This document shows, one piece after another, positions 1,493-23,395 of a stretch of DNA of 28,988 nucleotides. Every line of letters starts with the position of its first letter. Positions within the stretch are counted from its first letter, which is position 1. A program made the position numbers and the translations under genes. The notes under the pieces are model-generated. The model saw only the letters and a program-made list of their open reading frames with translations. It searched no databases and was not told the DNA's origin. The DNA is from a virus: IMG/VR virus record IMGVR_UViG_3300011113_000411, positions 1-28,988 of that record; one strand, 5' to 3'.

Positions 1493-2068
1493 TCACAGCC
1501 GCACGCGCTCGCCCTCCAGCCCGACGCGCCCAGCCCCCGCCAGCACCCGAAGCGCCCTGACGACCGACTGGCGGCGCGTGTCGCGCTTACCCCCAGTGCC
1601 CGCAGGCAGCTTGGCCACGGCCCGCTCTACCACCTCTGAGAGGCCCGCAACGTCAGCCACAAGGCCCAGCTCCCCCACCGCCTCCATCACCGCCCGCTCG
1701 TTCGCCCCGACGCGCGGCTCCCTCACCTTCGCAACCTTGACCGGCAGCGCCGCAATCTGCTCCTGCGTCTTCCACGCATTGGCCATGTGCGTGGTGAAGC
1801 CATAGCGATGCGCCGGGCAGCAGCGCGTCAGGTGGGGCGAGGTCATCCACTGATGCACCTCCTTCGTCGTGATGAAATACTCCTCACACATCGCGCAGGC
1901 CGCCTCCAGATCGACGAACAGGTGGAACTTGCCCCGGCGCTTGAACGGCCGAACGGCGACCACCTCATACGTCTGCTCGATGTCAGGCAGTACGAAACTG
2001 TCCCCGACAGTCCACTGCCCGCCCTTGTGATCCTCGATGAATGCCTTCACCTCATCCGCGTTTGTCAT
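1493..2068 (-). CDS. Unknown protein: Cys/His cluster plus C-terminal winged-helix-like module
   Basis: 191 residues from an ATG with GGAGG four bases upstream; a longer in-frame GTG/ATG start is possible but lacks a site. I do not recognise the family as a whole. Residues 58-87 contain C-x2-C and, 21 residues on, C-C-x2-H, which looks like a zinc-binding knuckle. The last 65 residues resemble the C-terminus of the phage primase-helicase at 8570-10600; both contain KRD-x-RRQSVVRA in the same place, so a shared winged-helix DNA-binding module is likely. First gene of the leftward transcript that leads into both terminase genes, with its own promoter at 2085-2113. A transcriptional or packaging regulator is a guess. 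The 66 bases between its stop and the small terminase start show no clear signal. Confidence 0.75.
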   Translation of the reverse strand: MTNADEVKAFIEDHKGGQWTVGDSFVLPDIEQTYEVVAVRPFKRRGKFHLFVDLEAACAMCEEYFITTKEVHQWMTSPHLTRCCPAHRYGFTTHMANAWKTQEQIAALPVKVAKVREPRVGANERAVMEAVGELGLVADVAGLSEVVERAVAKLPAGTGGKRDTRRQSVVRALRVLAGAGRVGLEGERVRL

Positions 2069-2084
2069 ACGACCTCCATACCCA

Positions 2085-2113
2085 ACCATACCCCAGCGCA
2101 ACGGGCAGTGCAA
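2085..2113 (-). promoter_or_regulatory. Leftward sigma70-type promoter with a variant of the phage operator
   Basis: On the minus strand, -35 TTGCAC (2113-2108), a 17-base spacer, then -10 TATGGT (2090-2085). The spacer contains GTTGCGC, the right half-site also found at the rightward promoter 2282-2310; the left half-site is one base short compared with the other copies. The predicted transcript would start near 2078 and give an untranslated leader of only about ten bases before the ATG at 2068. It would drive the unknown gene and the terminase genes. Confidence 0.55.
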
Positions 2114-2137
2114 CACCATACTCTACATCACTTTACT

Positions 2138-2205
2138 TGCACCATGCAGCAGGCATCATCAACTTGGAAAAGAAGGTTAAGTGATGATGCATGCTGCACG
2201 TTGCA
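2138..2205. repeat. 24-bp imperfect inverted repeat with a 20-base loop
   Basis: Arms at 2138-2161 and 2182-2205 pair at 21 of 24 positions; the core TGATGATGC...TGCTGCA is identical. The 20 bases between them are purine-rich (2162-2181). There is no T-run after either arm, so a simple terminator is unlikely. It lies in the non-coding divergent region beside phased ATGCTGC repeats and an A/T-rich stretch (2260-2277), an arrangement seen in replication origins and in multi-site operator regions. Function unknown. Confidence 0.7.
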
Positions 2206-2257
2206 GTCTGCACCATACATCATGACGCATCATGCTGCGCCATGCTGCAAATGCTGC
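2190..2257 (+). repeat. Phased ATGCTGC direct repeats (iteron-like)
   Basis: ATGCTGC occurs at 2191, 2232, 2242 and 2251; three of the four copies are preceded by C. Spacings are 41, 10 and 9 bases, roughly whole helical turns, so a protein could bind all copies on one DNA face. The first copy is part of the right arm of the inverted repeat at 2138-2205. An A/T-rich tract follows immediately (2260-2277), then the promoter at 2282. Candidate origin iterons or a regulator array. Confidence 0.5.
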
Positions 2258-2281
2258 AGGAAAATAATTTGAAAATAGGTG

Positions 2282-2310
2282 TTGCAACGCCACGTTGCGC
2301 GTGCCATAGA
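2282..2310 (+). promoter_or_regulatory. Rightward early promoter with operator dyad (copy A)
   Basis: -35 TTGCAA (2282-2287), 17-base spacer, -10 CATAGA (2305-2310). The dyad TTGCAAC-GCCAC-GTTGCGC covers 2282-2300, so a bound protein would block or contact RNA polymerase. Preceded by AAAATAGGT, also found before copy E at 17152. The predicted start is near 2316, so the mRNA would begin with ATCAACAACG, the shared leader, followed by GGAGACACC and the ATG at 2342. Confidence 0.65.
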
Positions 2311-2341
2311 GGGTCATCAACAACGCATACGGAGACACCCA

Positions 2342-2725
2342 ATGACCACCGCCCGCCAGATCGATGAACTGAAGTCCGAAGGCCGCTACTTCGAAGCCGG
2401 CAAGCTGGCTCGCCAACTCGGCGACACCACCGGCTACGGTTGCCACTTCGGCCTCCGCTCGGAACTGGAGAAGGCCCGCGCCGAGTTCGAGCTGGGCTTC
2501 AACGCTGAAGACACCGTGGCCGTCTGGCCGCGCGGTTACGCCCACGAAGATGGCACCTCCAAGATCAAGGTGCCCGCTGGCACCCCGGAGGCTGACGTTG
2601 CGCGCATCGTCCGTAAGCAGTTCGGCTCGTTTGCCTCGATCAGCGGCATCACCCGCGCTCGCCCGCCGGTTGCTCCGGTGAGCGACGCCGATGCTCGCCA
2701 CTACAGCCGCCACGACAACACCTAA
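2342..2725 (+). CDS. Hypothetical early protein
   Basis: 127 residues; the ATG at 2342 is chosen because the shared leader and GGAGA end just before it. Not recognised. It is helical and charged at the start (ARQIDELKSEGRYFEAGKLA), which suggests a short helical repeat, followed by a mixed domain with FAEDTVAVWPRGY-like strands and an Arg/Pro-rich tail ending in HYSRHDNT. Soluble, no membrane segment. First gene of the main rightward operon, directly under promoter copy A, so it is probably expressed early and strongly. Confidence 0.75.
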   Translation: MTTARQIDELKSEGRYFEAGKLARQLGDTTGYGCHFGLRSELEKARAEFELGFNAEDTVAVWPRGYAHEDGTSKIKVPAGTPEADVARIVRKQFGSFASISGITRARPPVAPVSDADARHYSRHDNT

Positions 2726-2734
2726 TCAGCAACG

Positions 2735-2756
2735 GGGGCGGCCACCGCGCCGCCCC
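2735..2756 (+). promoter_or_regulatory. GC hairpin inside a leader
   Basis: GGGGCGGC (2735-2742) pairs perfectly with GCCGCCCC (2749-2756) around a six-base loop. No T-run follows, so it is not an ordinary terminator. It sits between a copy of the shared leader motif (ATCAGCAACG, 2724-2733) and the ribosome site GGGAGA of the gene at 2777. It could stabilise the mRNA or mark a processing point. Confidence 0.5.
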
Positions 2757-2776
2757 AACCAACAGGGAGACACGAC

Positions 2777-3031
2777 ATGACCATCGACCACCTGCCTGAC
2801 GCCCAGTTCCTCGCAGCGACCAAGCTGCTCGAGACACATGTCCTCGCCAACCACGAAGTGATCGAACTGCGCGTCACGCCGTCCTTCGCCGGCAAGCACG
2901 TCTACGTGTACTGCGTCGCCGCCTTCATCGACTATGGGGCCAACGAAGATATCACCACCGCCGGGCGCTTCGCCCGCTCCGGCTTCCACGTCCGCATCGG
3001 CGCACGCGGTGCCGTCAAGCACCTCAAGTAA
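2777..3031 (+). CDS. Hypothetical protein
   Basis: 84 residues, ATG preceded by GGGAGACACGAC, the same ribosome-site wording used by its neighbours. Not recognised. Predicted as a small alpha/beta protein: helix at residues 8-30, then strands around VIELRVTP and VYVYCVAAFIDYG, with a basic C-terminus GARGAVKHLK. No signal peptide or metal-binding motif. Co-transcribed with the genes on either side. Confidence 0.7.
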   Translation: MTIDHLPDAQFLAATKLLETHVLANHEVIELRVTPSFAGKHVYVYCVAAFIDYGANEDITTAGRFARSGFHVRIGARGAVKHLK

Positions 3032-3043
3032 GGGAGACACGAC

Positions 3044-3355
3044 ATGACGCACACACCGGGCCCTTGGTACGCCGTCGGCCGCATGGTCGAGGTGGACGAC
3101 GACGACCACGCTGACATCTGCACCACCAACCCTGACCTGTTCGGGCAGGGGCACCGTGCGCCGCCGATCGAGGAGCAGCAGGCCAACGCCCGCCTGATCG
3201 CCCTTGCGCCTGACATGCTCGCCATGCTGCAGGAGGTCGCCGACTACCTCGACTGCTACGCCGACGTGATCGACGGCGACGACGGCCAGCCCGAGGCGAA
3301 CGACGCCATGCGGCTGCTGACGGCCGTGACCGATTTGATCGCCCCTCATAATTGA
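3044..3355 (+). CDS. Phage protein of the THTPGPW...NARLIALAP type
   Basis: 103 residues. The opening THTPGPW and the central ANARLIALAPDMLAMLQEVA are the hallmarks of a small protein found in very many phages of proteobacteria; its function is not known to me. Between them is an acidic stretch (residues 15-25, VEVDDDDHADI). The C-terminal half is helical. ATG follows GGGAGACACGAC. The gene is 12 bases from its upstream neighbour, so both are in one operon. Family recognition is firm; no role can be given. Confidence 0.85.
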   Translation: MTHTPGPWYAVGRMVEVDDDDHADICTTNPDLFGQGHRAPPIEEQQANARLIALAPDMLAMLQEVADYLDCYADVIDGDDGQPEANDAMRLLTAVTDLIAPHN

Positions 3356-3358
3356 TAG

Positions 3359-3387
3359 TTTCAACTCCGCATTGCACATGCGAGGAC
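3359..3387 (+). promoter_or_regulatory. Operator dyad and weak promoter (copy B)
   Basis: Dyad TTTCAAC-TCCGC-ATTGCAC at 3359-3377, followed at the usual distance by a poor -10 (GAGGAC, 3382-3387) and then by the shared leader ATCAGCAACGAGGAGACACC before the ATG at 3416. The -35 TTTCAA and the -10 are the weakest of the set, so this may need an activator or may mainly serve as a binding site. Confidence 0.45.
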
Positions 3388-3415
3388 AGCCCATCAGCAA
3401 CGAGGAGACACCGAC

Positions 3416-3646
3416 ATGACCACCTACCGCAACATCGACGCCGACAAGGCCCACCGCAGCTTCAAGCGCCTCAACGGCCGGCAGGTGCGTATCGTGCACC
3501 GCCACCTGCTCGCGGCCGTTGACCGCGTCATGACCGCCCGCGCCTTCTTCGACCACTCCGGCGACAAGACCCTGCTGCTCCGCAGCCTGTCCGAGGTCTA
3601 CGCCCTCAACGCCGTGAAGCGCGAGCTGCAGTCGGAGGGCTACTGA
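3416..3646 (+). CDS. Hypothetical basic protein
   Basis: 76 residues, start fixed by the leader and GAGGAGACACCGAC. Not recognised. Mostly helical and rich in Arg and His (FKRLNGRQVRIVHRHLLAAV), so nucleic-acid binding is possible but unproven. No membrane segment. It is preceded by its own copy of the operator/leader, suggesting separate control inside the early operon, and is followed one base later by the next gene. Confidence 0.7.
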   Translation: MTTYRNIDADKAHRSFKRLNGRQVRIVHRHLLAAVDRVMTARAFFDHSGDKTLLLRSLSEVYALNAVKRELQSEGY

Positions 3647-3647
3647 C

Positions 3648-3902
3648 ATGATCCGCCCCACGCTCAACATCAACGGCAGCAGCCTGACCGACCTTACCCA
3701 CCCGCGCATCGCCGCCTACGACGCCCTGCAGGATGTCATCAAGGCCCTACAGCAGGTGACGCCCAACGGCCGGGACTACCCCGGCGACAACGACCGCTGC
3801 GTGGCCGATCGGCAGGCGCACTACGACCGCCTCGCGGCGCTGCACGCCATCGCGACCGAGATCGTCGCCGAGGCCGTCCTCATCAAGGAGCAGATCAAAT
3901 GA
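3648..3902 (+). CDS. Hypothetical protein
   Basis: 84 residues. Not recognised. After a variable first 20 residues it is predicted to be two helices separated by a polar Pro/Gly/Asp turn (TPNGRDYPGDNDRC). The second helix runs to the end (LAALHAIATEIVAEAVLIKEQ). Its start lies one base past the previous stop, with GGAGGG about nine bases upstream. Its stop overlaps the next gene as ATGA, so translation is probably coupled along this stretch. Confidence 0.65.
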   Translation: MIRPTLNINGSSLTDLTHPRIAAYDALQDVIKALQQVTPNGRDYPGDNDRCVADRQAHYDRLAALHAIATEIVAEAVLIKEQIK

Positions 3903-4096
3903 CTGACCGCACACTGATCGGCCTGACCTGCCTCCTCCTCACCTGCATCGGCCTGATGCTCTGGGTGTGCGCGTGGGAGGAGAAGGCCCGCAAGCGCGCC
4001 GAGGCCTACTGTCAAGATCGCGGCATGATGCTAGTGGACACGCCCGCAGGCGAGCGCTGCGCGCACGTCTGGGCGCTTGAGAGGACGATCCGGTGA
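3899..4096 (+). CDS. Small single-span membrane protein
   Basis: 65 residues. Residues 6-26 (LIGLTCLLLTCIGLMLWVCAW) form one hydrophobic helix, followed by a charged EEKARKR stretch that should stay in the cytoplasm, then a soluble tail with two cysteines. Overlaps the previous gene (ATGA) and the next (GTGA). A small membrane protein in an early operon could act in superinfection exclusion, lysis control or host takeover; nothing in the sequence decides. The next gene also encodes a single-span protein, so the two may work together. Confidence 0.65.
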   Translation: MTDRTLIGLTCLLLTCIGLMLWVCAWEEKARKRAEAYCQDRGMMLVDTPAGERCAHVWALERTIR

Positions 4097-4200
4097 GCTG
4101 GCTGGCCCTGACCATCCTCGCCCTCGTCGGCACGGCTGTCTGGATCATCGTCCGGCGGCCGCCCATCACCCCGCAAGATCTTGAGGACACCGACTGGTGA
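4093..4200 (+). CDS. Very small membrane protein (35 residues)
   Basis: GTG at 4093 overlaps the previous stop (GTGA) and its own stop overlaps the next GTG (GTGA), so the reading frame fits exactly into the coupled chain. The product starts SWLALTILALVGTAVWIIV, a clear transmembrane helix, then RR and a short polar tail ending in DTDW. Arginines after the helix suggest that the N-terminus faces out. The exact overlaps on both sides and the clean hydrophobic profile argue that it is real despite its size. Function unknown. Confidence 0.6.
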   Translation: MSWLALTILALVGTAVWIIVRRPPITPQDLEDTDW

Positions 4201-4589
4201 CACGCAAACCCATCATCCACAATCGTCGCTTCTACTGGCTGTTTGAGGACGGCCGCCGCGAGCCTGTGCAGGTCACTGAGCGGCTGCTGGCGCAGGTGCG
4301 GCAGGCGTCCTACCAGACGCAGGTGCAGGCCGCCCAGCGCGCCGCAGAGGCGACCGACGCCCCGCCCCGCCGCACCAACCACCCGCCCCGCCCACCCGGC
4401 ACCATGCCGACGCTGCCGTCCGACGCCCGCGACATCGGCAACCGGACGCTCAGCGAGCTGGCCCACGACTATGGCTGGGGCTCCGTGGCGCGCTGCTCGG
4501 CGGCGCTCAAAACGCAACGCCCGACCGTCTACGAGGCTGCCCGCGCCAACGGCCGGGCGCGGGCCTACGTCAACCTGAGGCAGGGGTAA
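4197..4589 (+). CDS. Hypothetical protein with a Pro-rich linker and possible C-terminal HTH
   Basis: 130 residues from GTG at 4197, coupled to the previous gene. Three parts can be seen. Residues 1-35 are basic and aromatic (NRRFYWLFEDGRREPVQV). Residues 36-80 are an Ala/Gln helix followed by a Pro/Arg-rich linker. Residues 82-130 look like a helix-turn-helix of the type that opens with LSELAHDYGWGSVARCSAAL. That last part suggests DNA binding. I do not recognise the family. Confidence 0.65.
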   Translation: MTRKPIIHNRRFYWLFEDGRREPVQVTERLLAQVRQASYQTQVQAAQRAAEATDAPPRRTNHPPRPPGTMPTLPSDARDIGNRTLSELAHDYGWGSVARCSAALKTQRPTVYEAARANGRARAYVNLRQG

Positions 4590-4594
4590 TCGGC

Positions 4595-5005
4595 ATGACG
4601 AGCAGACCCATCTACGAGAGCGATGCCGATCGCGCCAATCAGGCCACCGTCGTGGCCAAGCTGGAGCGCGCCTTCGGCCTGACGGCCACTGCGCCTCAAG
4701 ACCGCTTCGCGCCATACGATGCGGTCTTCCGCTTCACTCACCGGCCCTGCGTCGTGGAGATCAAGGTGCGCCGCAACACGCGTGCGCGCTACGACACGTA
4801 CCTTCTGAGCGAGGGCAAGTACAACGCGCTCTGCGCGGTGGACGCCAACGCCCTGCTGGCAGTGCAGTGGACGGATCAACTGGGCGTCGTGCAGCTCCCC
4901 GTCGAGCACACCGTCACCACCGGCGGCCGCGCAGACCGGGGCGACAGCCGCGACATCGAGCGCGTGGTGCTGATCCCGATCGAGGCGTTTATTCCGGTGC
5001 CGTAG
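4595..5005 (+). CDS. Probable PD-(D/E)XK nuclease-like protein
   Basis: 136 residues; ATG with AGGGG upstream. Around residues 43-60 it has the pattern D-x(12)-E-I-K (PYDAVFRF...VVEIKVRR) after a helix with a conserved-looking Glu (LERAFGL). This is the arrangement of the PD-(D/E)XK fold used by Holliday-junction resolvases and related phage nucleases. The later strand ALLAVQW and a C-terminal strand fit such a fold. Its last 17 bases overlap the tail of the convergent gene at 4989-5156. A role in recombination or host DNA breakdown is inferred from the motif only. Confidence 0.55.
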   Translation: MTSRPIYESDADRANQATVVAKLERAFGLTATAPQDRFAPYDAVFRFTHRPCVVEIKVRRNTRARYDTYLLSEGKYNALCAVDANALLAVQWTDQLGVVQLPVEHTVTTGGRADRGDSRDIERVVLIPIEAFIPVP

Positions 5006-10634: not shown

Positions 10635-10664
10635 TATGTATCAGCAACCCCAAGGAGAGACCCA

Positions 10665-13899: not shown

Positions 13900-13974
13900 G
13901 GTGAGCCGCGCGCGGGTGCGGGTCTCCCTCCTGCGTTGCTGATACACGAAGCGCGCGGCTCTCCCGAACAGAGG
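13890..13974 (+). promoter_or_regulatory. Leader hairpin 2, covers the polymerase ribosome site; loop is an inverted mRNA leader
   Basis: CCTCTGTTC (13890-13898) pairs with GAACAGAGG (13966-13974), then a 4/4 internal loop, then GAGCCGCGCGC (13903-13913) with GCGCGCGGCTC (13951-13961): 20 perfect pairs. The outer right arm contains AGAGG, the only ribosome site before ATG 13980, so folding would hide it. The 37-base loop (13914-13950) contains GTCTCCCTCCTGCGTTGC and TGATAC, the reverse complement of the leader shared by the other phage genes (GTATCAGCAAC..GGAG..GAGACC). Confidence 0.7.
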
Positions 13975-13979
13975 ATGCG

Positions 13980-16865
13980 ATGAGCACACTGTACCTCGAT
14001 CTCGAAACATTCTGCGAAACGAAGATCACCTACGGCGCGTACCGCTATGCGGAGGACGCCGAGGTGATGCTGGTGGCGTGGGCGTGTGACGACGAGCCCG
14101 TAACCGTCTGGGACACGCAGGACATGCCGCACTGGCGTGACGCGCTGCAGAACATCATCGACAAGGCCGATCGCGTTGTGATCCACAACAGCAACTTCGA
14201 CCGCACCGTCCTGCGCGAGCAGGGCGTCCACATCCCCGTGGAGAAAATTATCGACACGATGGTGCTGGCCCTGCAGCACAGCCTGCCCGGATCTCTGGGC
14301 CAGCTCTGCGACGTGCTGAACGTGCCGCAGGACAAAGCCAAAGACACGGCGGGCAAAAAGCTGATACACTTGCTGACGAAGCCGAGGCCCAGCAACGTAA
14401 AAATACGGAGAGCCACCCGTGACACACACCCCGCCGAGTGGGCCGCCTTCGTCGAGTACGCCCGGCTGGATGTGGACGCAATGCGAGACGTACTTGGACG
14501 ACTGCCATCATGGAACGATAGTGATCGTGAGCGGCTCTTGTGGCAGTGTGATCAAAGAATTAATGACCGTGGTGTCGCCGTTGACCGAGAGTTTGCACGA
14601 GCAGCTATACGAGCTTTCGATCGAGCTGGACGATCTCTGGCCGCTCGTGCAGCCCATCTGACGGGCGGCAGCGTCACGTCCGCCACGCAGCGCCAGCGCC
14701 TGCTCGACCACCTCAAGGATGCCCACGGCTTCGAGACCGAAGATCTGACGCGCGGCACGCTCGGCACCCTGCTCGCCGGCGACCTCAATCCGCAGGTGCG
14801 CGAGCTGCTGGAGATACGGCAGCAGGCGGCCGCGACGAGCCCGGCCAAGTACGGTGTGCTGATCAACGCCACGAACCGGGACGGCCGCCTGCGCGGCCTG
14901 ATCCAGTTCTGCGGCGCGTCGCGCACTGGGCGTGACGCCGGCCGGCTGTTCCAGCCGCAGAACCTGCCGCGATCGCCCGACTGGTTCGACGGCGACGTGC
15001 AGGCGACGACCGTGGCCGCCATGAAGGCGGACTGCGAGCACCTGATCTGGGACAACGTCAGCGAGCGCTGCGCGTTTGCCGTGCGCGGGGCGCTGGTTGC
15101 CCCCGAGGGCACCAAGCTGGTCATCGCCGACCTGTCCAACATCGAGGGGCGCGTCTTGGCGTGGTTAGCCGGCGAGGACTGGAAGGTCACCGCGTTCAAG
15201 GCCTACGACCGGGGCGAGGGGCACGACCTGTACAAGGTCACCGCCGGCCGCATTCTCGGCAAAGATCCGGGCGTCATCACCAAGGCCGAGCGGCAGCTTC
15301 AAGGGAAAATCCCTGAGCTTTCTGGGGGTTACCAAGGGGGCGTCGGCGCGTACCGAGCAATGGGCGGCCCAGTCTTCGACGCCATGACCGACGAGGCCAT
15401 TCAAAAGATCGTCTCCGCGTGGCGCAAGGCCCACCCGCGCACGTGCAATTTGTGGTACGACATGGAGGCGGCCGCGCGGTCAGCCATCAACAAACTGGGC
15501 GAGAGCTTCGCCGTGCGCGACCTGATCACATTCGACGTGAAGGCGGACGCGCAGGGCATCGCGTGGCTGCGGATGAAGCTGCCGAGCGGCCGCTACCTGT
15601 GCTACCCGCACCCGGAGGTGTCGGACAGCGCCAGCCTGTCGTACGAGGGCATCAACCAGTTCACGCGCAAGTGGCAGCGCCTCGACACGTACGGCGGCAA
15701 GCTCTGTATCGCGGGCGGTACTCTCGTCCTTACCGATGCTGGCTGGCTTCCGATCGAACAGGTGACCGTAATCCATAAAGTGTGGGACGGCGTAGAGTGG
15801 GTGGGCAACGAGGGGCTTGCCAGAAAAGGTGTTAAGGAGGTAATAAACTTGAATGGCGTTTGGATGACGCCAGACCATGAAGTGCTTACAACGAAAGGCT
15901 GGGTTCGTGCATCACAGAGCGAAGGACTTGAGCGAGCAGACCCTCGGATACCTGACGGTTGTGAAGTACCACGGGAGCAACGGTCGCCGGTCTCTGTGGC
16001 TGCTTCGATGCCGGTGTGGAGCTGCGGTAGTGCTCGCAGCGACGGAAATAGCGAAACAGCAGAAGCGCGGCATTCAGACCTCCTGCGGTTGCATGCGGAA
16101 CAAGACCATATCGGAGAAGCGGACAACTCACGGGATGTCGGGCCACAAAGCGTTCGCGGTGTGGCGCAGCATGATCGACAGGTGCTCACTGCCGACCCAT
16201 CAGGCTTGGGCGCGATACGGAGGGCGTGGAATAACGGTGTGCGATCAGTGGCGGAAATCCTTCAGCGCCTTCTGGGCCGATATGGGATCGACTTACCGCG
16301 AGGGGCTTACGCTGGAGCGGAAGGACAACGCCGCCGGATACTCCCCGGAAAACTGCGTGTGGGCCACGCCGCTGAAGCAGGCGCGGAACAAACGCACGAA
16401 TGTGCATATCAACACGCCGTGGGGGCGGATGACTGTCGCGGAAGCGGCGGATCGCTCAGGTCTGAACAGAACAACGCTGTACTACCGGGTGAACAACGGA
16501 GTGCCGGAACATCGACTTTTCGAGGTGCCCGATACGTCACGGAAGTTTACGATCTGGTAAACTGCGGGCCACGCAGCCGTTTCGTGGTTGCTGGGGAGGA
16601 CGGCAAGACGCTGATCGTCCACAACTGCGAGAATGCCGTGCAGGCGATCGCGCGCGACGTGTTCATGCACGGCATGCTGCGCGCCGAGGAGGAGGGCTAC
16701 AGCGTCTGCATCCGCGTACATGACGAGCTGGTCTGCGAGACGCCGGACGAGCCGGCGTACAGCAGCGACGGGCTGGCGGCGCTCATGGCGACCAACCCGA
16801 GCTGGTCGGCCGGCCTGCCGCTTGCGGCGGCGGGGTTTGAAGCGTACCGTTACCGCAAGGACTGA
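13980..16865 (+). CDS. Family A DNA polymerase with 3'-5' exonuclease, interrupted by an intein
   Basis: 961 residues; 654 after removal of the intein at residues 576-882. Exonuclease motifs: YLDLETF (5-11), IHNSNFDRTVL (64-74) and YARLDVDAM (159-167). Polymerase motif A is VIADLSNIEGRVLAWLAGE (about 381-399), motif B the ERQLQGKIPELSGGY helix, and motif C RVHDELVCE near 911. It is the phage replicative polymerase. ATG 13980 has AGAGG upstream, buried in hairpin 2. The intein sits between GGKL and CENAVQAIARD, a conserved palm region, so activity needs splicing. A nested +1 gene (14419-14661) overlaps the exonuclease part. VRR-NUC and helicase genes follow. Confidence 0.93.
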   Translation: MSTLYLDLETFCETKITYGAYRYAEDAEVMLVAWACDDEPVTVWDTQDMPHWRDALQNIIDKADRVVIHNSNFDRTVLREQGVHIPVEKIIDTMVLALQHSLPGSLGQLCDVLNVPQDKAKDTAGKKLIHLLTKPRPSNVKIRRATRDTHPAEWAAFVEYARLDVDAMRDVLGRLPSWNDSDRERLLWQCDQRINDRGVAVDREFARAAIRAFDRAGRSLAARAAHLTGGSVTSATQRQRLLDHLKDAHGFETEDLTRGTLGTLLAGDLNPQVRELLEIRQQAAATSPAKYGVLINATNRDGRLRGLIQFCGASRTGRDAGRLFQPQNLPRSPDWFDGDVQATTVAAMKADCEHLIWDNVSERCAFAVRGALVAPEGTKLVIADLSNIEGRVLAWLAGEDWKVTAFKAYDRGEGHDLYKVTAGRILGKDPGVITKAERQLQGKIPELSGGYQGGVGAYRAMGGPVFDAMTDEAIQKIVSAWRKAHPRTCNLWYDMEAAARSAINKLGESFAVRDLITFDVKADAQGIAWLRMKLPSGRYLCYPHPEVSDSASLSYEGINQFTRKWQRLDTYGGKLCIAGGTLVLTDAGWLPIEQVTVIHKVWDGVEWVGNEGLARKGVKEVINLNGVWMTPDHEVLTTKGWVRASQSEGLERADPRIPDGCEVPREQRSPVSVAASMPVWSCGSARSDGNSETAEARHSDLLRLHAEQDHIGEADNSRDVGPQSVRGVAQHDRQVLTADPSGLGAIRRAWNNGVRSVAEILQRLLGRYGIDLPRGAYAGAEGQRRRILPGKLRVGHAAEAGAEQTHECAYQHAVGADDCRGSGGSLRSEQNNAVLPGEQRSAGTSTFRGARYVTEVYDLVNCGPRSRFVVAGEDGKTLIVHNCENAVQAIARDVFMHGMLRAEEEGYSVCIRVHDELVCETPDEPAYSSDGLAALMATNPSWSAGLPLAAAGFEAYRYRKD
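14419..14661 (+). CDS. Candidate nested gene in the +1 frame of the polymerase exonuclease domain
   Basis: 80 residues from GTG 14419. Upstream, inside the polymerase gene, stands AGCAACG (14391-14397) then GGAGAG (14407-14412) seven bases before the GTG, the same leader and ribosome-site wording as the early genes; it is built with codons rare for this genome (ATA, AGA). Polymerase codons from about 14468 to 14658 end mostly in A or T, against the strong C/G rule elsewhere, and normal use returns right at this frame's stop. The product has a Ser/Pro start, then CHHGTIVIVSGSCGSVIKEL and an acidic helix (SLHEQLYELSIELDDLWPLV). Not recognised. ATG 14470 is an alternative start. Confidence 0.5.
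   Translation: MTHTPPSGPPSSSTPGWMWTQCETYLDDCHHGTIVIVSGSCGSVIKELMTVVSPLTESLHEQLYELSIELDDLWPLVQPI
15705..16625 (+). mobile_element. Intein in the DNA polymerase (307 residues)
   Basis: Protein-splicing element. Block A begins with Cys1 (CIAGGTLVLTDAGWLPIEQV). Block B is GVWMTPDHEVLT (intein residues 51-62) with Thr55 and His58. Block F is VYDLVNCGPRSRFVVAG (281-297). Block G ends LIVHN, with the catalytic His306-Asn307, and the next extein residue is Cys. All splice-site chemistry is present. Residues between about 65 and 278 show no intein homing domain in this frame; instead the DNA encodes an HNH endonuclease one frame over (15877-16560). The polymerase frame stays open across it, which splicing requires. 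Confidence 0.9.
15877..16560 (+). CDS. HNH homing endonuclease encoded out of frame inside the intein
   Basis: 227 residues from ATG 15877 (GTG 15907 is an alternative start nearer the family's usual beginning), one frame ahead of the polymerase. Residues 16-72 match the N-terminal domain of phage HNH nucleases (LGYLTVVKYHG, C45-x-C47 ... C70-x-C72, likely zinc-binding). The nuclease core spans 85-172: HKAFAVWRSMIDRC, WARYGGRGI, LERKDNAAGYSPENCVWAT. The end, 178-216, is a helix-turn-helix (MTVAEAADRSGLNRTTLYY). It should cut intein-free polymerase genes and so spread the element. Its start overlaps block B and its TAA lies inside block F. Codon third positions here are G/C-rich in this frame. 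Confidence 0.88.
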   Translation: MKCLQRKAGFVHHRAKDLSEQTLGYLTVVKYHGSNGRRSLWLLRCRCGAAVVLAATEIAKQQKRGIQTSCGCMRNKTISEKRTTHGMSGHKAFAVWRSMIDRCSLPTHQAWARYGGRGITVCDQWRKSFSAFWADMGSTYREGLTLERKDNAAGYSPENCVWATPLKQARNKRTNVHINTPWGRMTVAEAADRSGLNRTTLYYRVNNGVPEHRLFEVPDTSRKFTIW

Positions 16866-16868
16866 GCC

Positions 16869-17147
16869 ATGACGCCCGCCGGCAAGCTGCAGGATCACCT
16901 CAAGCACGTCGTGCAGAAGAGCGGCGGCCAGTACCGCAAGACGCGCTGGGAGGGCCGCAGGGGCTGCCCTGACTGCTTCGTGTGGTGGACGTGGCCGCGC
17001 GCCGCCTTCATCGAGATCAAGGCGGACGGCGACCGTCTCAGCGGCCACCAGCAGCGCGAGATCGAGCGCATGCGCGGCGACGGCGTGCCGGTCTTCATCG
17101 CCCGGTCGATCGAGGAGATCGACGAGATAGTGGCCCTATTAAAATAG
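16869..17147 (+). CDS. VRR-NUC domain nuclease
   Basis: 92 residues, essentially only the VRR-NUC domain: GCPDCFV with Asp35, then AAFIEIKADG with Glu49-x-Lys51 and SGHQQREIERM with Gln61, which is the catalytic set of this PD-(D/E)XK branch. Family members cut branched or flapped DNA. ATG 16869 has AAGGA seven bases upstream and lies three bases after the polymerase stop. Likely resolves replication or recombination intermediates with the polymerase and helicase. A small A/T palindrome (17136-17149) spans its stop. Confidence 0.88.
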   Translation: MTPAGKLQDHLKHVVQKSGGQYRKTRWEGRRGCPDCFVWWTWPRAAFIEIKADGDRLSGHQQREIERMRGDGVPVFIARSIEEIDEIVALLK

Positions 17148-17181: not shown

Positions 17182-17213
17182 GTTCATGTCAGCAACGAAA
17201 AGGAGACACTGAC

Positions 17214-17556: not shown

Positions 17557-17590
17557 CTGCATATCAGCAACGCAAACAGGAGTTACCCAA

Positions 17591-18022
17591 ATGGCACTTT
17601 CTTTTCGAGTTCGCGACGATCTGGTCGATCTGGGTCGTGACGAAGACGGTTCGGTTATCGTGGGTCGTTCGTTTTACGTAGTGGCCGAGGACGCCGCCGG
17701 TCGTCGTTACGCTCATAATCATTCGTTTCTGGATCACGTTCAGCGTTACGACGAAGAAGATGGTTTTCATTTTTGGGGTCGCCGTTGGGACGGCGACGCC
17801 GAGCGCGAAGCCGCTACCCTGCTGGCTCGTATCGAAGCTCACGTTGCCGCCGGTGGCGCTCTTAACGAAGCTCATTGGGATGAGGTCGATCCGGGTTACG
17901 GTTCGGTCGCTTATCAGGAGCTGGACGCCGTTGGTTATTTCGCGGCTCGTGAGCGTCACGAGGCTCGTCAGGCCGGTGAAGCGGTTCCCTTCGATCAGGT
18001 CTACGATTATCATTTCGCTTGA
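17591..18022 (+). CDS. Hypothetical protein with distinct codon use
   Basis: 143 residues from ATG 17591, set by leader copy F. Acidic, with strands near SVIVGRSFYVVAED and a helix near AEREAATLLARIEAHVAAG. I do not recognise it. Codon choice differs sharply from every neighbour: CGT, GGT, GTT, GAT, CAT, TTT and TCG dominate where the rest of the window uses CGC, GGC and GTC. This could mean very high expression tuned to host tRNAs, or recent acquisition. It is followed 11 bases later by the helicase gene, so both share promoter F. Confidence 0.75.
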   Translation: MALSFRVRDDLVDLGRDEDGSVIVGRSFYVVAEDAAGRRYAHNHSFLDHVQRYDEEDGFHFWGRRWDGDAEREAATLLARIEAHVAAGGALNEAHWDEVDPGYGSVAYQELDAVGYFAARERHEARQAGEAVPFDQVYDYHFA

Positions 18023-18033
18023 GAGGAAGGCAC

Positions 18034-19392
18034 GTGACCTTCAAGCCGCACGACTACCAGAAGGAGGCCCTCGCGCACCTGTACAAGGAGCGCAGGGCCG
18101 CCCTGTGGATGCCCATGGGCGGCGGCAAGACCGTCACCACCCTGACGGCGCTGGAGGCGCTGTCCGTGGTCGAGGACGTGTACCCGGCGCTGGTGCTGGC
18201 ACCGCTGCGCGTTGCGCGCTCGACGTGGCCGGACGAGGTCAAGAAGTGGCCGCACCTGTCGCACCTGCGCGTCAGCGTCATCACCGGCACGCCCAAACAG
18301 CGTCAAGCGGCACTTGACACGCCGGCCGACATTTACACGACCAACTACGACAATCTTGTGTGGCTCCGAGAGACGCTGGGCGACGCGTGGCCGTTCAAGA
18401 CGGTCATCGCCGATGAGTTCACGCGCCTGAAGAGCTTCAGGCTGCGTCAGGGCGGCTCACGGGCGCGTGCGCTGGGTCAGGTGGCCCACACGCACGTCAC
18501 GCGCTTCATCGGCCTGACAGGCACCCCTGCGCCCAATGGCGTGAAGGATCTCTGGGGACAGGTCTGGTTCCTCGACAAGGGCAAGCGTCTGGGCCAGACC
18601 TTCTCCGCCTTCAGCGAGCGCTGGTTCCGCAAGGGCTACGACGGCTACAGCCTCGTGCCCTACGACCACACGCAGGAGGAAGTGCAGGAGCGGCTGAAGG
18701 ACATCTGCCTGACCGTGCGCGGCCTGCAGGTCGATGAGCCTATCACCACGCCCCTCTACGTTGACCTGCCGCCTGCGGCGCGCCGCGCGTACGACGAGAT
18801 GGAGGAGGAGATGTATACCGTCATCGGCGCAGAGGGCGTCGAGGCGGCCAACGCGGCCGTGCGGACGCAGAAGTGCCTGCAGCTTGCCAACGGCGCGATG
18901 TACACCGATGATTACGGCAACTGGGAGGCGGTGCACGATGCCAAGTTGGAGGCGCTGGACAGCGTCATTGAGGAGGCCAACGGCGCGCCCGTCTTGGTGG
19001 CCTATAATTTCAAACACGACTTGGCCCGGCTACGCAAGCGCTACCCTAAAGGCCGGGTGCTGGACGCTGACCCTGATACGATCAAACGGTGGAACCGGGG
19101 GGAAATCGAACTACTTTTCGCTCACCCTGCATCGGCGGGCCACGGCATCTCGCTCCAGTACGGAGGGAACATAATTACGTTTTTTGGCGTAAACTGGAGC
19201 CTTGAAGAATACCTACAGATCATTGAGCGCATCGGCCCAATGCGGCAAAAACAGGCCGGCTACGATCGGCCGGTGCTCGTCTACCCGATCCTCGCCCGCG
19301 ACACGGTCGATGATCTCGTCATGGATCGCCTCACGTCGAAGAAGAGCACGCAGGAAATTTTATTGGAAGCGCTGAAGCGGAGGAAGAAATGA
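18034..19392 (+). CDS. SNF2/DEAD-type helicase
   Basis: 452 residues from GTG 18034, which has AGGAAGG three bases upstream (a TTG at 18019 is in frame but overlaps the previous gene). Motif I is LWMPMGGGKTVT (about 25-36), motif Ia LAPLRVARSTW, motif II IADEFTRLKS (DEFT in place of DEAH/DEAD), motif III GLTGTPAPNG, motif V HPASAGHGISL and motif VI QIIERIGPMRQKQ. This is the compact two-domain SNF2-like helicase found in many phages near polymerase and VRR-NUC genes. It would move along or remodel DNA using ATP; its exact role in replication or recombination is not settled. ATGA overlap with the next gene. Confidence 0.9.
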   Translation: MTFKPHDYQKEALAHLYKERRAALWMPMGGGKTVTTLTALEALSVVEDVYPALVLAPLRVARSTWPDEVKKWPHLSHLRVSVITGTPKQRQAALDTPADIYTTNYDNLVWLRETLGDAWPFKTVIADEFTRLKSFRLRQGGSRARALGQVAHTHVTRFIGLTGTPAPNGVKDLWGQVWFLDKGKRLGQTFSAFSERWFRKGYDGYSLVPYDHTQEEVQERLKDICLTVRGLQVDEPITTPLYVDLPPAARRAYDEMEEEMYTVIGAEGVEAANAAVRTQKCLQLANGAMYTDDYGNWEAVHDAKLEALDSVIEEANGAPVLVAYNFKHDLARLRKRYPKGRVLDADPDTIKRWNRGEIELLFAHPASAGHGISLQYGGNIITFFGVNWSLEEYLQIIERIGPMRQKQAGYDRPVLVYPILARDTVDDLVMDRLTSKKSTQEILLEALKRRKK

Positions 19393-20042: not shown

Positions 20043-21683
20043 TTAGGCGGCGTACTTTTCCGCCAGCTCCACGATGCCGCCCTCGGCCCAACCCCGACGC
20101 TTGTACTTCGCGACATCGTAGAGGTACTGACCGATAGCGTCTTGGATCTCGGGGGTAACCGTGACGATGGAGTTCGGGTCTGTTGCAAACGACTTGAATT
20201 TCATGGTCGAGGTTGTCGGGCCGCCTGTTTTCGTGACTTGCTTGGCCCGGTCAAAAACCGACTTGAACGGGATTTCAACGGGCAGAAGATTTTGCATCTG
20301 GCCCACCATAATGCCTGAGAGGCCAGCATTGTAGTCGGGGCGCATAAATTCGACCGGCTCGCCAAGGACGTTGGCATATTCGTTGCTGCCCTCAAACAGC
20401 CGGCGCTTCGATCCGCTCAACAACGCGGGGTCAACGCGTAAGAAATTTTCTGGGTCAATTTTAGCAACGCTGAAACCCGTCGATCCGAGTGGCGCGAGGC
20501 GCAAGTCGGGTTCGGCTACAGCCAGACGCGCGAGGGCACCGAGGTTGCCCGGCACCCCAGCCATCTGCGCTTCCTTGGTGACGTTTGACAGACGTTTTGT
20601 GATCAGCTTACGATCGCCGCCGGGACGGGTCAGGATGTCGAACAGGCCAAGGGCGGGGTCGTCCGCGAAGCCCTCAAAATCAGGGAGACCCTCCGCGCCC
20701 GACCGGATATACTTGTCGATCAGGCGCAATTTGTCCCCAGACAAACCCAGATTTGGGATCAGGTTCGCAAGGATCGCCGATGTCTGGTGGCTAAAATCTG
20801 ATCCCGACGGCCCCATGTTGACGTGCATACCAAACAGAGGCTGACCCGGATTGGCGTTTTGCCAGTCTCGGATCATGCGAGCTTCGTTTTCTTCCACGCC
20901 TGCGTCGCTGGCCCACACCAGTGGGTTTCCAACGGCGTTTTCTTGGTAGCCGTATCTTGCACCGCCGTATGTTGAAACTGGATTGACCAGTGGGACGCCG
21001 TTGACCGACAGAACGTCCTTGTTAGCCATAGTTGCGTCGCCGAGCATGCGGAAAAGACCCGAGCCTACAGGGAACGCGTCTTCGGTAAGAAGGGGAACGT
21101 CAGGTTCTGGCGTGCGGTCGCGATACTCGCCAGAAAACGTGAGCGGCGAGGGGGTCTCGTCGCCCCAACTGCTGCCATAGCCCGAAGAGTGCTGCGCGAA
21201 GAAAGGCGCTGCACCTTCAACAGGGAAGCCCTGTTCAGCGGCTTGTGATGTCACGGATTGCGCGCTGCCCGGCTTGATTGAAAAGCGCTGCAACTCGGGA
21301 TCGGGGTCTATGATCGTCGGCCCAATGGTGTACGGCGCTCGCGCTTTGCGGCGCTCTGCTGCGGTCGCGCCTTGGTTAAGACGCGCGCGAGCTTCGGCGC
21401 GAACTCGAGCTGAAGCCTCGCTGCGGATATCGGCCGGCTTTGTTTTGCGACGGGATTTGCCGCCCTTGCCGGGGAGGTCAGGGACATCCGGCACTTTGGT
21501 TTTCATGAACGCATGCGTGGGGGTCGGCTTCTCCGCCGCGCGCTGCGCCACGGCCTTCTTGATCATCTCCGGGTCGGCGTCGCGGCCGAGGACGGACATA
21601 ACCTCGTCCACAGCGGCTTTGCCGTACTGCGTAAACAGATCAGCAAGATAGTCGAGGTTGCGCTTGCTGGGCGGCTTAGCCAT
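20043..21683 (-). CDS. Large virion-associated or polyvalent-type protein
   Basis: 546 residues, last gene of the leftward virion operon. Residues 1-55 (RNLDYLADLFTQYGKAAVDE, LGRDADPEMIKKAVAQRA) duplicate the start of the next protein upstream. Residues 60-130 are basic and low-complexity. The large remaining part (VNGVPLVNPVSTYGGARYGY, FGMHVNMGPSGSDFSHQ, LGALARLAVAEPDLRLAPLG) looks like a globular domain of the sort carried on phage polyvalent proteins injected with the DNA; I cannot name it. The start ATG overlaps the previous stop by eight bases. G/C content is lower than in the early operon. Confidence 0.7.
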   Translation of the reverse strand: MAKPPSKRNLDYLADLFTQYGKAAVDEVMSVLGRDADPEMIKKAVAQRAAEKPTPTHAFMKTKVPDVPDLPGKGGKSRRKTKPADIRSEASARVRAEARARLNQGATAAERRKARAPYTIGPTIIDPDPELQRFSIKPGSAQSVTSQAAEQGFPVEGAAPFFAQHSSGYGSSWGDETPSPLTFSGEYRDRTPEPDVPLLTEDAFPVGSGLFRMLGDATMANKDVLSVNGVPLVNPVSTYGGARYGYQENAVGNPLVWASDAGVEENEARMIRDWQNANPGQPLFGMHVNMGPSGSDFSHQTSAILANLIPNLGLSGDKLRLIDKYIRSGAEGLPDFEGFADDPALGLFDILTRPGGDRKLITKRLSNVTKEAQMAGVPGNLGALARLAVAEPDLRLAPLGSTGFSVAKIDPENFLRVDPALLSGSKRRLFEGSNEYANVLGEPVEFMRPDYNAGLSGIMVGQMQNLLPVEIPFKSVFDRAKQVTKTGGPTTSTMKFKSFATDPNSIVTVTPEIQDAIGQYLYDVAKYKRRGWAEGGIVELAEKYAA

Positions 21684-22791
21684 GTTTCGCTTTCCTCTTC
21701 ACAGCGCCGCCAACGGCAAACTCACGCATGGCTTTGACGACATCGCTGTGCGTCGTGACCTCGTCGCCGGCCTTGTCCCATATAGAATGGTGCGCGAGAT
21801 GTTGATAGTAGGGGCGCAGCTCTTCCGGCAGCGCAAGATCAAGCGCGCTCTGGCGGGCTGACAGGCGCTCCACGCCTTCGACACCACCGAGGCCGCCGCG
21901 TCGGGCGATAAACTTGGATGCCTCTTTGGTCGGACGCCCGGTGTTGAGAATGATCTGGCGGGCGTCGAGTGTCGGCTGATCGCCGCGACCGAGCAGGGAA
22001 GCCAAGAAGCCGGATTTGCTCGGGCCGATGCCCTTAACGTCCTTCGTGAACTTTCGCCATTCGTCCGGCGAGCTTGCCATCTCGCGGCCGGCTGCGACGA
22101 GATCCGAGACCTGCGACTGCCGACCGGGCAGGTTCAGCGCGGCCCACTCGAGCGCGTTTCTCAAATCGTTTTGCTTCCCGAAGGGCTTCATCTGGGCGAC
22201 GGCGTCGCCGATAGCGTTGGGGGACAGCCGGCCGTACTGCGCGGCCTCGAGGTAAGCCTGACCGGCAGGCGTCCCAAGCCACTCACCGAACGCGCCTTCT
22301 GGGCGCACTTTGCCTGACACGTCTGCCGGGAGCCGCAAGCCGGCACGGCGCAGCTTCTCCGCGTCTACCGCCTGACGCTGGATGCTCGCTCGGGTGACGG
22401 TGAACGCCTTGATGAGATCGCGCGCCGACAGACCGCCAGATGCCGCACGGCCGGCCTGATCAGCCATGAAGCGGCCGAAGTCGAGGACGTGCTCCGGTAT
22501 GACTGAGAGGCCTTCCAGCTTCTCGTACACATCCGACATGGGTGACCACTGCCAGTCGGCGTTCACGGTGGCTTCGGGATCGCGATACTCCGCAACTTTG
22601 CGCGGCGGTGGCATCACTTGAACGATCGGTTTCTTCGCTGCCTTCGCGCGCTGCGCCACGGCCTTCGCGACCACTTTCGGCTCAGCGTCACGGCCGAGGA
22701 TAGACCTCACCTCATCGACGAGGGGTTGGCCGTATGTGTCGTACATGTCGGCCAGATAGTCGAGGTTGCGCTGACTGGACGGCTTAGCCAC
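21676..22791 (-). CDS. Virion-associated protein, paralogous N-terminus, possible HhH segment
   Basis: 371 residues from GTG 22791 (AGAGGAAGG six bases before). Residues 1-50 (RNLDYLADMYDTYGQPLVDE, LGRDAEPKVVAKAVAQRA) match the start of the 546-residue protein downstream. Near residues 260-290, VKGIGPSKSGFLASLLGRGD followed by PTLDARQI has the G-I-G-P-x-K then D layout of helix-hairpin-helix proteins such as HhH-GPD glycosylases; an enzyme role is only a possibility. The end is basic (KRKAKHG), nearly the same as the end of the 203-residue protein upstream. Probably packaged and injected with the genome. Confidence 0.68.
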   Translation of the reverse strand: MAKPSSQRNLDYLADMYDTYGQPLVDEVRSILGRDAEPKVVAKAVAQRAKAAKKPIVQVMPPPRKVAEYRDPEATVNADWQWSPMSDVYEKLEGLSVIPEHVLDFGRFMADQAGRAASGGLSARDLIKAFTVTRASIQRQAVDAEKLRRAGLRLPADVSGKVRPEGAFGEWLGTPAGQAYLEAAQYGRLSPNAIGDAVAQMKPFGKQNDLRNALEWAALNLPGRQSQVSDLVAAGREMASSPDEWRKFTKDVKGIGPSKSGFLASLLGRGDQPTLDARQIILNTGRPTKEASKFIARRGGLGGVEGVERLSARQSALDLALPEELRPYYQHLAHHSIWDKAGDEVTTHSDVVKAMREFAVGGAVKRKAKHG

Positions 22792-23395
22792 GTTTCGCCT
22801 TCCTCTTGGCTACCGCGCGACGGACGCCGAAGCCGAGGCCCTCGGTGCCCATACGCATGGCCAGCGCCTGTTTGGCGTTGCTGGGCGTGTTCTCTATAAC
22901 GGTGGACAGGATGTCGTCGGGCGTCTCGGCCTGCCCGGCGCTCTGCACCGCGCCCGTGGCGACCTCATCAGCCGTGCCGAGCGCAACCCGAGGCAAGAAC
23001 TTTGCAGACAGGCTCTCGAGCATCTTGGGGCTCATGCGGGCCAGAGCGCGCTCAACCGGAGCGTCCAGCACGCGCGCCACGCGGCCCAGTGCGCCTATCG
23101 TGCCGACCTGCCCGCCCGGAATGAACGCGCCTGCGATACCGGGCACGAGGCCACCGGCCAGACCGGCCATCATCGCCTGCCCACGATTGGCCTCTGCCCA
23201 AGCGTTGCGCTCTTTCTCGATGCGCTCTTTGACGCCGCGATAGTCTCCACCGGCGAGCATCGCCCGGATAAAGGCCTCCGCCTCGTCGGTCGTGCCAAAC
23301 GACATCCCCTGCCCGAACTCGCGCAGAGCGTTGACGCCACCGCCCTCCGCATAGCGGCGCGGCGTCACGGCGAAGGGGGAGTCGGTGGAGCGCAT
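22784..23395 (-). CDS. Glycine-rich virion/ejection protein
   Basis: 203 residues. Residues 23-170 repeat a module of the 953-residue protein upstream: FGxG...DEAEAF, a helix ending NAWAEANRG, then a Gly/Ala-rich hydrophobic stretch with FIPG, and a segment QAETPDDILSTV. Gly-zipper helices of this sort are typical of podovirus internal proteins that insert into the host membrane during DNA ejection; that role is inferred. The basic tail KRKAKRG ends across the start of the next gene (8-base overlap). Its ATG overlaps the stop of the 953-residue gene (TAATG). Confidence 0.7.
   Translation of the reverse strand: MRSTDSPFAVTPRRYAEGGGVNALREFGQGMSFGTTDEAEAFIRAMLAGGDYRGVKERIEKERNAWAEANRGQAMMAGLAGGLVPGIAGAFIPGGQVGTIGALGRVARVLDAPVERALARMSPKMLESLSAKFLPRVALGTADEVATGAVQSAGQAETPDDILSTVIENTPSNAKQALAMRMGTEGLGFGVRRAVAKRKAKRG

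Follow-up and report, generated by a model that had tools for sequence, protein, structure and literature searches.

The window analysed here, the whole 28,988-nucleotide stretch of IMG/VR virus record IMGVR_UViG_3300011113_000411, holds a phage gene for a family A DNA polymerase (PolA). A predicted intein is inserted in this gene and read in its frame, and nested in the intein is a second open reading frame (ORF), one base over, for a putative HNH-family nuclease. The arrangement was put forward in an original prediction that a model made from the letters of the sequence; coordinates are collected in Table 1.

The intein and the overlapping ORF in the polymerase gene

The polymerase ORF is a single frame, open from end to end, and its product matches PHROG phrog_17 (E = 3.2e-97) and Pfam DNA_pol_A (E = 7.5e-11). 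The intein begins with C1 at 15705 and ends with N307 at 16623-16625. All intein hallmarks are present, namely an N-terminal Cys, TxxH in block B, a C-terminal HN and a Cys at position +1 of the C-extein, and in an alignment of 34 related inteins C1, T55, H58, D283, G288, P289, H306, N307 and the +1 Cys are invariant. In an AlphaFold model of the intein the predicted local distance difference test score (pLDDT) is mostly above 90 for residues 1-90 (range 81-97) and 276-308, and it is below 50 over most of residues 92-274, the host-frame linker. The best PDB matches of this model are mini-inteins (DnaX, RecA and DnaB; prob 1.00, best E = 6.2e-4). These data support assignment of the element as a HINT protein-splicing intein, whose removal would leave a polymerase of 654 residues.

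Table 1. Coordinates and basis of the features in the window, with PolA genes of relatives that carry two inteins
Feature	Position	Strand	Basis or remark
PolA with 3'-5' exonuclease, host gene	13980..16865	+	961 residues including the intein; ORF list, PHROG, Pfam
Intein, PolA frame, 307 residues, between TYGGKL and CENAVQAIARD	15705..16625	+	Invariant splicing residues, empty alleles, fold matches
N-terminal HINT half: C1; block B T55xxH58 at 15867-15878	15705..15974	+	pLDDT, host-frame dN/dS
HNH-family nuclease ORF, +1 relative to the intein frame, 227 residues from ATG; TAA inside block F	15877..16560	+	PHROG, AlphaFold, dN/dS
Shine-Dalgarno-like GAAAGG, 8 nucleotides before GTG 15907, in host-frame codons just past block B	15893..15898	+	
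Likelier nuclease gene, GTG start, 217 residues, MHHRAKDL...	15907..16560	+	Shine-Dalgarno support, start positions of relatives
Overlap: host-frame linker of about 200 residues, apparent shadow of the nuclease gene	15918..16530	+	Low pLDDT, dN/dS, stop absence
Cys pairs of the nuclease (C45, C47, C70, C72)	16009..16092	+	Invariant in 36 sequences
HNH-like core (LERKDN...YSPENCVW...N)	16306..16395	+	Invariant R148, Y155, N159, C160, N171
C-terminal helix-turn-helix of the nuclease	16423..16506	+	Pfam HTH_8 E = 9e-4, under the curated cut-off
C-terminal HINT half: block F (VYDLVNCGPRSRFVV), block G (HN)	16530..16625	+	Alignment; pLDDT 92-94
+1 Cys of the C-extein	16626..16628	+	Invaded versus uninvaded alleles
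Two-intein PolA genes, each intein with its own out-of-frame nuclease	L034 4218-5081, 5463-6386; L040 3882-4745, 5106-5891		
Two-intein PolA genes, each intein with its own out-of-frame nuclease	L038 4200-5084, 5577-6359; L092 2669-3529, 4001-4921		

The nuclease ORF starts inside block B and stops inside block F. Its product matches the PHROG 'HNH endonuclease' family phrog_374 (E = 3.7e-54) and a second PHROG profile (E = 3.8e-48; PHROG 374 / 3377 HNH endonucleases). The AlphaFold model has a mean pLDDT of 88, and a fold search against viral models returned entries whose names mark them as HNH endonucleases or homing endonucleases (best E = 1.9e-20). The two Cys pairs are likely to bind zinc, and the C-terminal helix-turn-helix is recognized by Pfam HTH_8 in 11 of 36 family members. 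NCBIfam models gave no match to the nuclease, and a PDB profile search had no match at 0.01, its top entry being I-HmuI (1u3e, E = 0.2). The nuclease label thus derives from PHROG families and viral models, and cleavage activity is putative. The positions and lengths in the original prediction agree with these results, as does its placement of the intein blocks in the polymerase frame with the HNH ORF one base over.

Recurrence of the arrangement among relatives

Relatives were taken from viral contigs, bacterial genomes and named phages, and the intein halves and the nuclease were located by tblastn and profile hidden Markov models; loci carry our own L numbers. Because the sample was seeded by similarity to the clade of the window, the counts describe that clade and are no census of inteins. 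Among 122 distinct inteins with a detectable HNH, the nuclease is at +1 in 93, at +2 in 29 and in the intein frame in none, and all 122 have an open host frame. The two-frame layout is kept down to about 26% nuclease identity. Named carriers include the APSE phages, Caulobacter phages RW, GB2A, RLK and KcrB, Shewanella phage SFCi1, coliphage Pubbukkers, Salmonella phage SE2, Streptococcus phage Javan255, Gardnerella phage AB1 and Pseudomonas phage MR14. The inteins reside in PolA (113), SNF2-type helicases (15) and a DEAD-type helicase (1), and several contigs have two in one PolA gene, a +2 intein at the O-helix region and a +1 intein near ENxxQ (Table 1).

The original prediction had named a sequencing error or indel, and relatives with the same HNH in frame, as what would overturn it. 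No in-frame relative was found among the 122. The probability that an endonuclease once in frame was shifted by indels from sequencing or assembly is practically negligible: the same layout occurs in all of these distinct inteins, from independent assemblies that include finished phage genomes, and the codon-position pattern switches frame between the HINT and nuclease parts. On this comparison the two-frame layout represents a mobile element of a conserved kind, not a sequencing slip.

On the nuclease tree, intein-borne copies fall mainly in two separated groups (6 label changes, versus a mean of 77 after shuffling), and at least 3 changes of the frame label are required on the splicing-domain tree; many forks are weakly supported on both trees. 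Because of the separated nuclease groups and the repeated changes of frame, more than one origin of the arrangement, or of its frame, is probable.

Some alleles have the TYGGKL/CENxxQA site without an intein (L048, BPP-1 and others). The +1 residue is Cys in invaded alleles; in uninvaded alleles it is mostly Val, Ala, Thr, Ile or Leu, with Cys in two, as if the splicing Cys arrived together with the element. Reduced forms also occur. The nuclease is mostly deleted in L050/L126, L083, L156, L098 and Javan422, with both splicing halves in frame, and in the Arsenophonus copy L248 it is broken by 5 stops while the host frame is open. The deleted and broken forms are consistent with gain and loss of the nuclease independently of splicing, and they support the suggestion in the original prediction that splicing and homing could evolve apart.

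In six loci (L045, L047, L066, L074, L131 and L159) the insertion point is shifted by a few codons, after ...VEN, AEN or TEN and before C.QA instead of before CEN. Around one conserved target, the exact insertion point thus varies slightly among relatives. The same kind of intein was seen in SNF2-type helicase genes at L005 (113-1033), L035 (8587-9504), L088, L097, L103, L120, L121, L174-L176, L181 and L184; no intein was seen in the helicase of the window itself (18019-19392).

Start signals and selection in the two frames

The original prediction started the nuclease at the ATG of the ORF, at 15877. The ORF is confirmed; the GTG at 15907 is the likelier start. No Shine-Dalgarno sequence lies upstream of the ATG, and the GTG is preceded by GAAAGG, at the matching place of which locus L033 has a perfect AGGAGG. 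Of 74 +1 relatives, 27 have their best Shine-Dalgarno-supported start at position 202 of the intein, where this GTG lies. We scored the best start codon near the nuclease domain of each locus by its anti-Shine-Dalgarno energy and compared it with internal controls. The median was -7.15 in the intact +1 loci (n = 74) versus about -3.8 in controls (p = 2e-19), and the value was -8.6 versus -3.5 in the +2 loci (n = 27, p = 7e-8). The preferred positions recur, mostly at 202 or 187 of the intein in the +1 loci and at 98 in most of the +2 loci.

A different route to the nuclease would be programmed ribosomal frameshifting (+1 or -1), which would fuse it to the N-terminal part of the polymerase and the HINT-N half. 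Both offsets exist among the relatives, and near block B the overlap of the two frames would leave room for a slip. Strong Shine-Dalgarno starts at fixed positions speak against this route, as does a stop, arising from conserved block-B codons, that shuts the nuclease frame of the +1 class just upstream of the starts in most aligned loci. We regard frameshifting as improbable and, from these start signals, internal initiation as the simplest reading of nuclease synthesis.

A good Shine-Dalgarno sequence, AAGGAGGT (15834-15841), was also noted just ahead of the nuclease ORF; ATG 15853 follows 11 nucleotides later and opens a four-codon ORF that ends at TGA 15865-15867. Reinitiation from this mini-ORF into the nuclease was considered and dropped, the mini-ORF being absent from most relatives.

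Ratios of non-synonymous to synonymous substitution rates (dN/dS) were compared between the window and its nearest relatives, L001 and L033. In the overlap, dN/dS of the nuclease frame is 0.166 and 0.205, respectively, and variation falls mostly at nuclease-frame third positions. In HINT-N, variation falls mostly at host-frame third positions, and the host-frame dN/dS is 0.05 and 0.17 (0.05-0.4 for residues 1-57). By these measures the nuclease frame is under purifying selection in the overlap. No such selection is evident in the host frame there, where dN/dS exceeds 1 and resembles that of the non-coding third frame; as a sequence, the linker is therefore unselected.

Stop codons are nevertheless missing from this host frame. 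In shuffles that replaced synonymous codons of the window nuclease, ignoring dinucleotide content, about 4.7 host-frame stops are expected and none is seen; the frame is stop-free in 0.36% of trials (P = 0.0036). Across relatives, 0 stops are seen versus 466.3 expected in 73 +1 loci and 85.8 expected in 27 +2 loci. The third frame has 11-14 stops per 200 codons, and of 135 freestanding HNH genes only 4 are free of stops in the frame corresponding to the +1 host frame, and none in the other. These comparisons support the view that the host frame of the overlap is a passenger, selected merely for the absence of stops, in keeping with the original description of the linker as a stop-free shadow of the nuclease gene; the low pLDDT of the linker fits as well.

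If the host frame is kept stop-free, the polymerase must be translated through the element, which argues for splicing of protein and not of RNA. Phage group I introns often contain HNH genes. A group I intron with an intron-encoded HNH gene was considered as an alternative, and one such precedent, I-PfoP3I in a phage polymerase intron, is described in PMC3428280. Over 15300-16900, which spans the intein, no Rfam match exceeded the gathering score. Since, in addition, the HINT protein domain shows conservation and no stop interrupts the host frame anywhere in the element, apparently through selection for openness, we consider a group I intron exceedingly unlikely.

Another alternative is that the intein still splices and its nuclease gene is an unexpressed relic of a past insertion. 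Such a relic would fit the 18 of the 122 copies, L248 among them, that have stops in the nuclease frame. The other 104 are intact, dN/dS is well under 1 in the clade of the window, and the start signals are conserved, so that this alternative seems quite unlikely. Start signals, selection in the nuclease frame and the predicted fold together lend support to the separate nuclease product that the original prediction had proposed.

The two-frame element and its relation to known systems

Taken together, the element is very probably a mini-intein in phage PolA that carries, in its linker DNA and one base over, an overlapping HNH-family homing nuclease gene. The two-frame layout and its conservation, the frame-specific selection, the avoidance of stops, the start signals, the empty alleles and the derivatives without nuclease are seen directly in the sequences; protein splicing, production and activity of the nuclease, its target site and homing are inferred from them. 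Ribosomes in the polymerase frame would make a precursor in which the HINT halves fold across a disordered linker of about 200 residues, excise the intein with its linker and join the polymerase. Some ribosomes would initiate within the intein, at a GTG or ATG preceded by a Shine-Dalgarno sequence, and in the other frame produce free nuclease. This enzyme would cleave polA alleles that lack the intein, at the conserved TYGGKL/(V)ENxxQA site, and during repair the intein, its nuclease and the +1 Cys would be copied into the cut allele. Selection would then hold the splicing halves in the host frame and the nuclease in its own, and keep the host frame of the overlap merely stop-free.

Several points weigh against this reading: (i) Arg148 is invariant across 36 nuclease sequences, including the few freestanding members aligned, and from motif comparison it occupies what we take to be the place of the first catalytic His of I-HmuI; the 'full' HNH nuclease of the original prediction is thus to be qualified in its core. 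(ii) Pfam HNH models do not match the nuclease, for which Pfam gave only weak helix-turn-helix matches. (iii) A PDB fold search with the nuclease model returned nothing significant. (iv) The internal starts overlap codons of conserved intein residues, and protein constraint may account for some of the Shine-Dalgarno signal. (v) The neglect of dinucleotide content bears on all the synonymous shuffles, in which the third frame came out as expected. (vi) The relatives were gathered by their similarity to this clade.

The nearest published parallel is the ShiLan domain of a mycobacteriophage DNA methylase, where an out-of-frame HNH lies in a stop-free host-frame insertion, with a similar insertion in Pacc40 gp60 (PMC11855218). 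Its authors report no intein splicing motifs and no ribosome-binding site, and they consider the element probably retained in the methylase (PMC11855218). The two elements share an open host frame in a phage gene, inferred homing and a host-frame reading predicted to be disordered. Unlike ShiLan, the element in the window has a complete HINT domain flanking the nuclease, mainly PolA hosts and detectable start signals. It could still be imagined as a non-splicing insertion of the ShiLan kind, its out-of-frame HNH being read as an inert loop and its intein motifs coincidental or dead, since there too the HNH is out of frame in an open host gene (PMC11855218). All catalytic splicing residues are invariant here, purifying selection acts on HINT-N and the fold agrees with solved mini-inteins, none of which applies to ShiLan; we judge such an insertion highly unlikely.

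Canonical full-length inteins (with a LAGLIDADG endonuclease, or HNH per Dalgaard et al. 1997) likewise combine a HINT domain with a homing endonuclease at a conserved host site. There the endonuclease is normally fused in frame and made as one polypeptide; here it is overprinted in another frame, at +1 in the window and out of frame in every one of the 122 relatives. The same architecture and PolA site occur in phage APSE-1 (GenBank AF157835 / NC_000935), with a HINT intein in P45 and part of the nuclease as P46; the HNH is 53% identical. The APSE-1 records give only a polymerase and an overlapping ORF (HNH endonuclease in RefSeq), and the intein and the relation between the two are unnamed there.

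The 'intein-containing DNA polymerase precursor' of Jerseyvirus (Salmonella phage SE2 and relatives) is a PolA intein of the same HINT subfamily, with the SE2 HNH at +2. Some Jerseyvirus records name the intein, and the SE2 record is without annotation of the out-of-frame nuclease. In that record (L318) the polymerase is annotated as two coding sequences (1660-4044 and 4157-4759), and the break lies downstream of the intein. In split inteins with freestanding endonucleases ('fractured genes'), the endonuclease is apart from the splicing domain, and host gene and intein are split in two. Unlike these, the host ORF is continuous here and the nuclease is nested within it in another frame.

We found no paper describing an intein with an out-of-frame HNH; an earlier description is possible, for example in works cited by the ShiLan paper, which include a preprint on actinobacteriophage inteins of 'non-canonical architecture' (10.1101/2025.01.02.630785) and Gorbalenya 1998, 'Non-canonical inteins' (PMC11855218). 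The statement in the original prediction that no such class had been described may well stand for the intein form, and has to be narrowed for the out-of-frame HNH, already published for ShiLan, and for APSE-1 P45/P46, already annotated without explanation. On balance we lean towards a distinct and widespread class of 'overprinted' inteins, hitherto undescribed as such, in which a nuclease in another frame would be the rule, with +1 and +2 versions having separate nuclease lineages, a dedicated internal start, and hosts comprising PolA (at several sites) and helicase genes of phages and bacterial genomes.

The textbook intein is a single polypeptide, its splicing domain fused to its homing domain. 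In the arrangement proposed here, two selfish functions would share DNA and not protein, so that each could be gained, lost or tuned alone, and the polymerase precursor would be spared from carrying a folded nuclease. It would also be a clear case of overlapping genes in which one frame is selected for its protein and the other for stop absence alone, and it would link hidden nucleases of the ShiLan type to true inteins. For annotation, it warns that out-of-frame ORFs within phage polymerases can be real genes. The argument used in the Felix O1 genome paper (PMC3185647), that an out-of-frame position speaks against an intein, would then not be decisive. Protein engineering may also find a use for inteins in which a long natural linker is tolerated.

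Two further features were noted elsewhere in the window. The adjacent minus-strand ORFs 20043-21683 and 21676-22791, for which PHROG gave no match, have duplicated 5' ends (21537-21699 and 22645-22807) that are 78-86% identical. Near-identical leader motifs (CATRTCAGCAACG...) stand directly before two small ORFs, at 17185-17207 and 17560-17582, where 0 are expected by chance at 3 mismatches; similar text occurs at 10637-10663 and, on the opposite strand, at 13920-13946.

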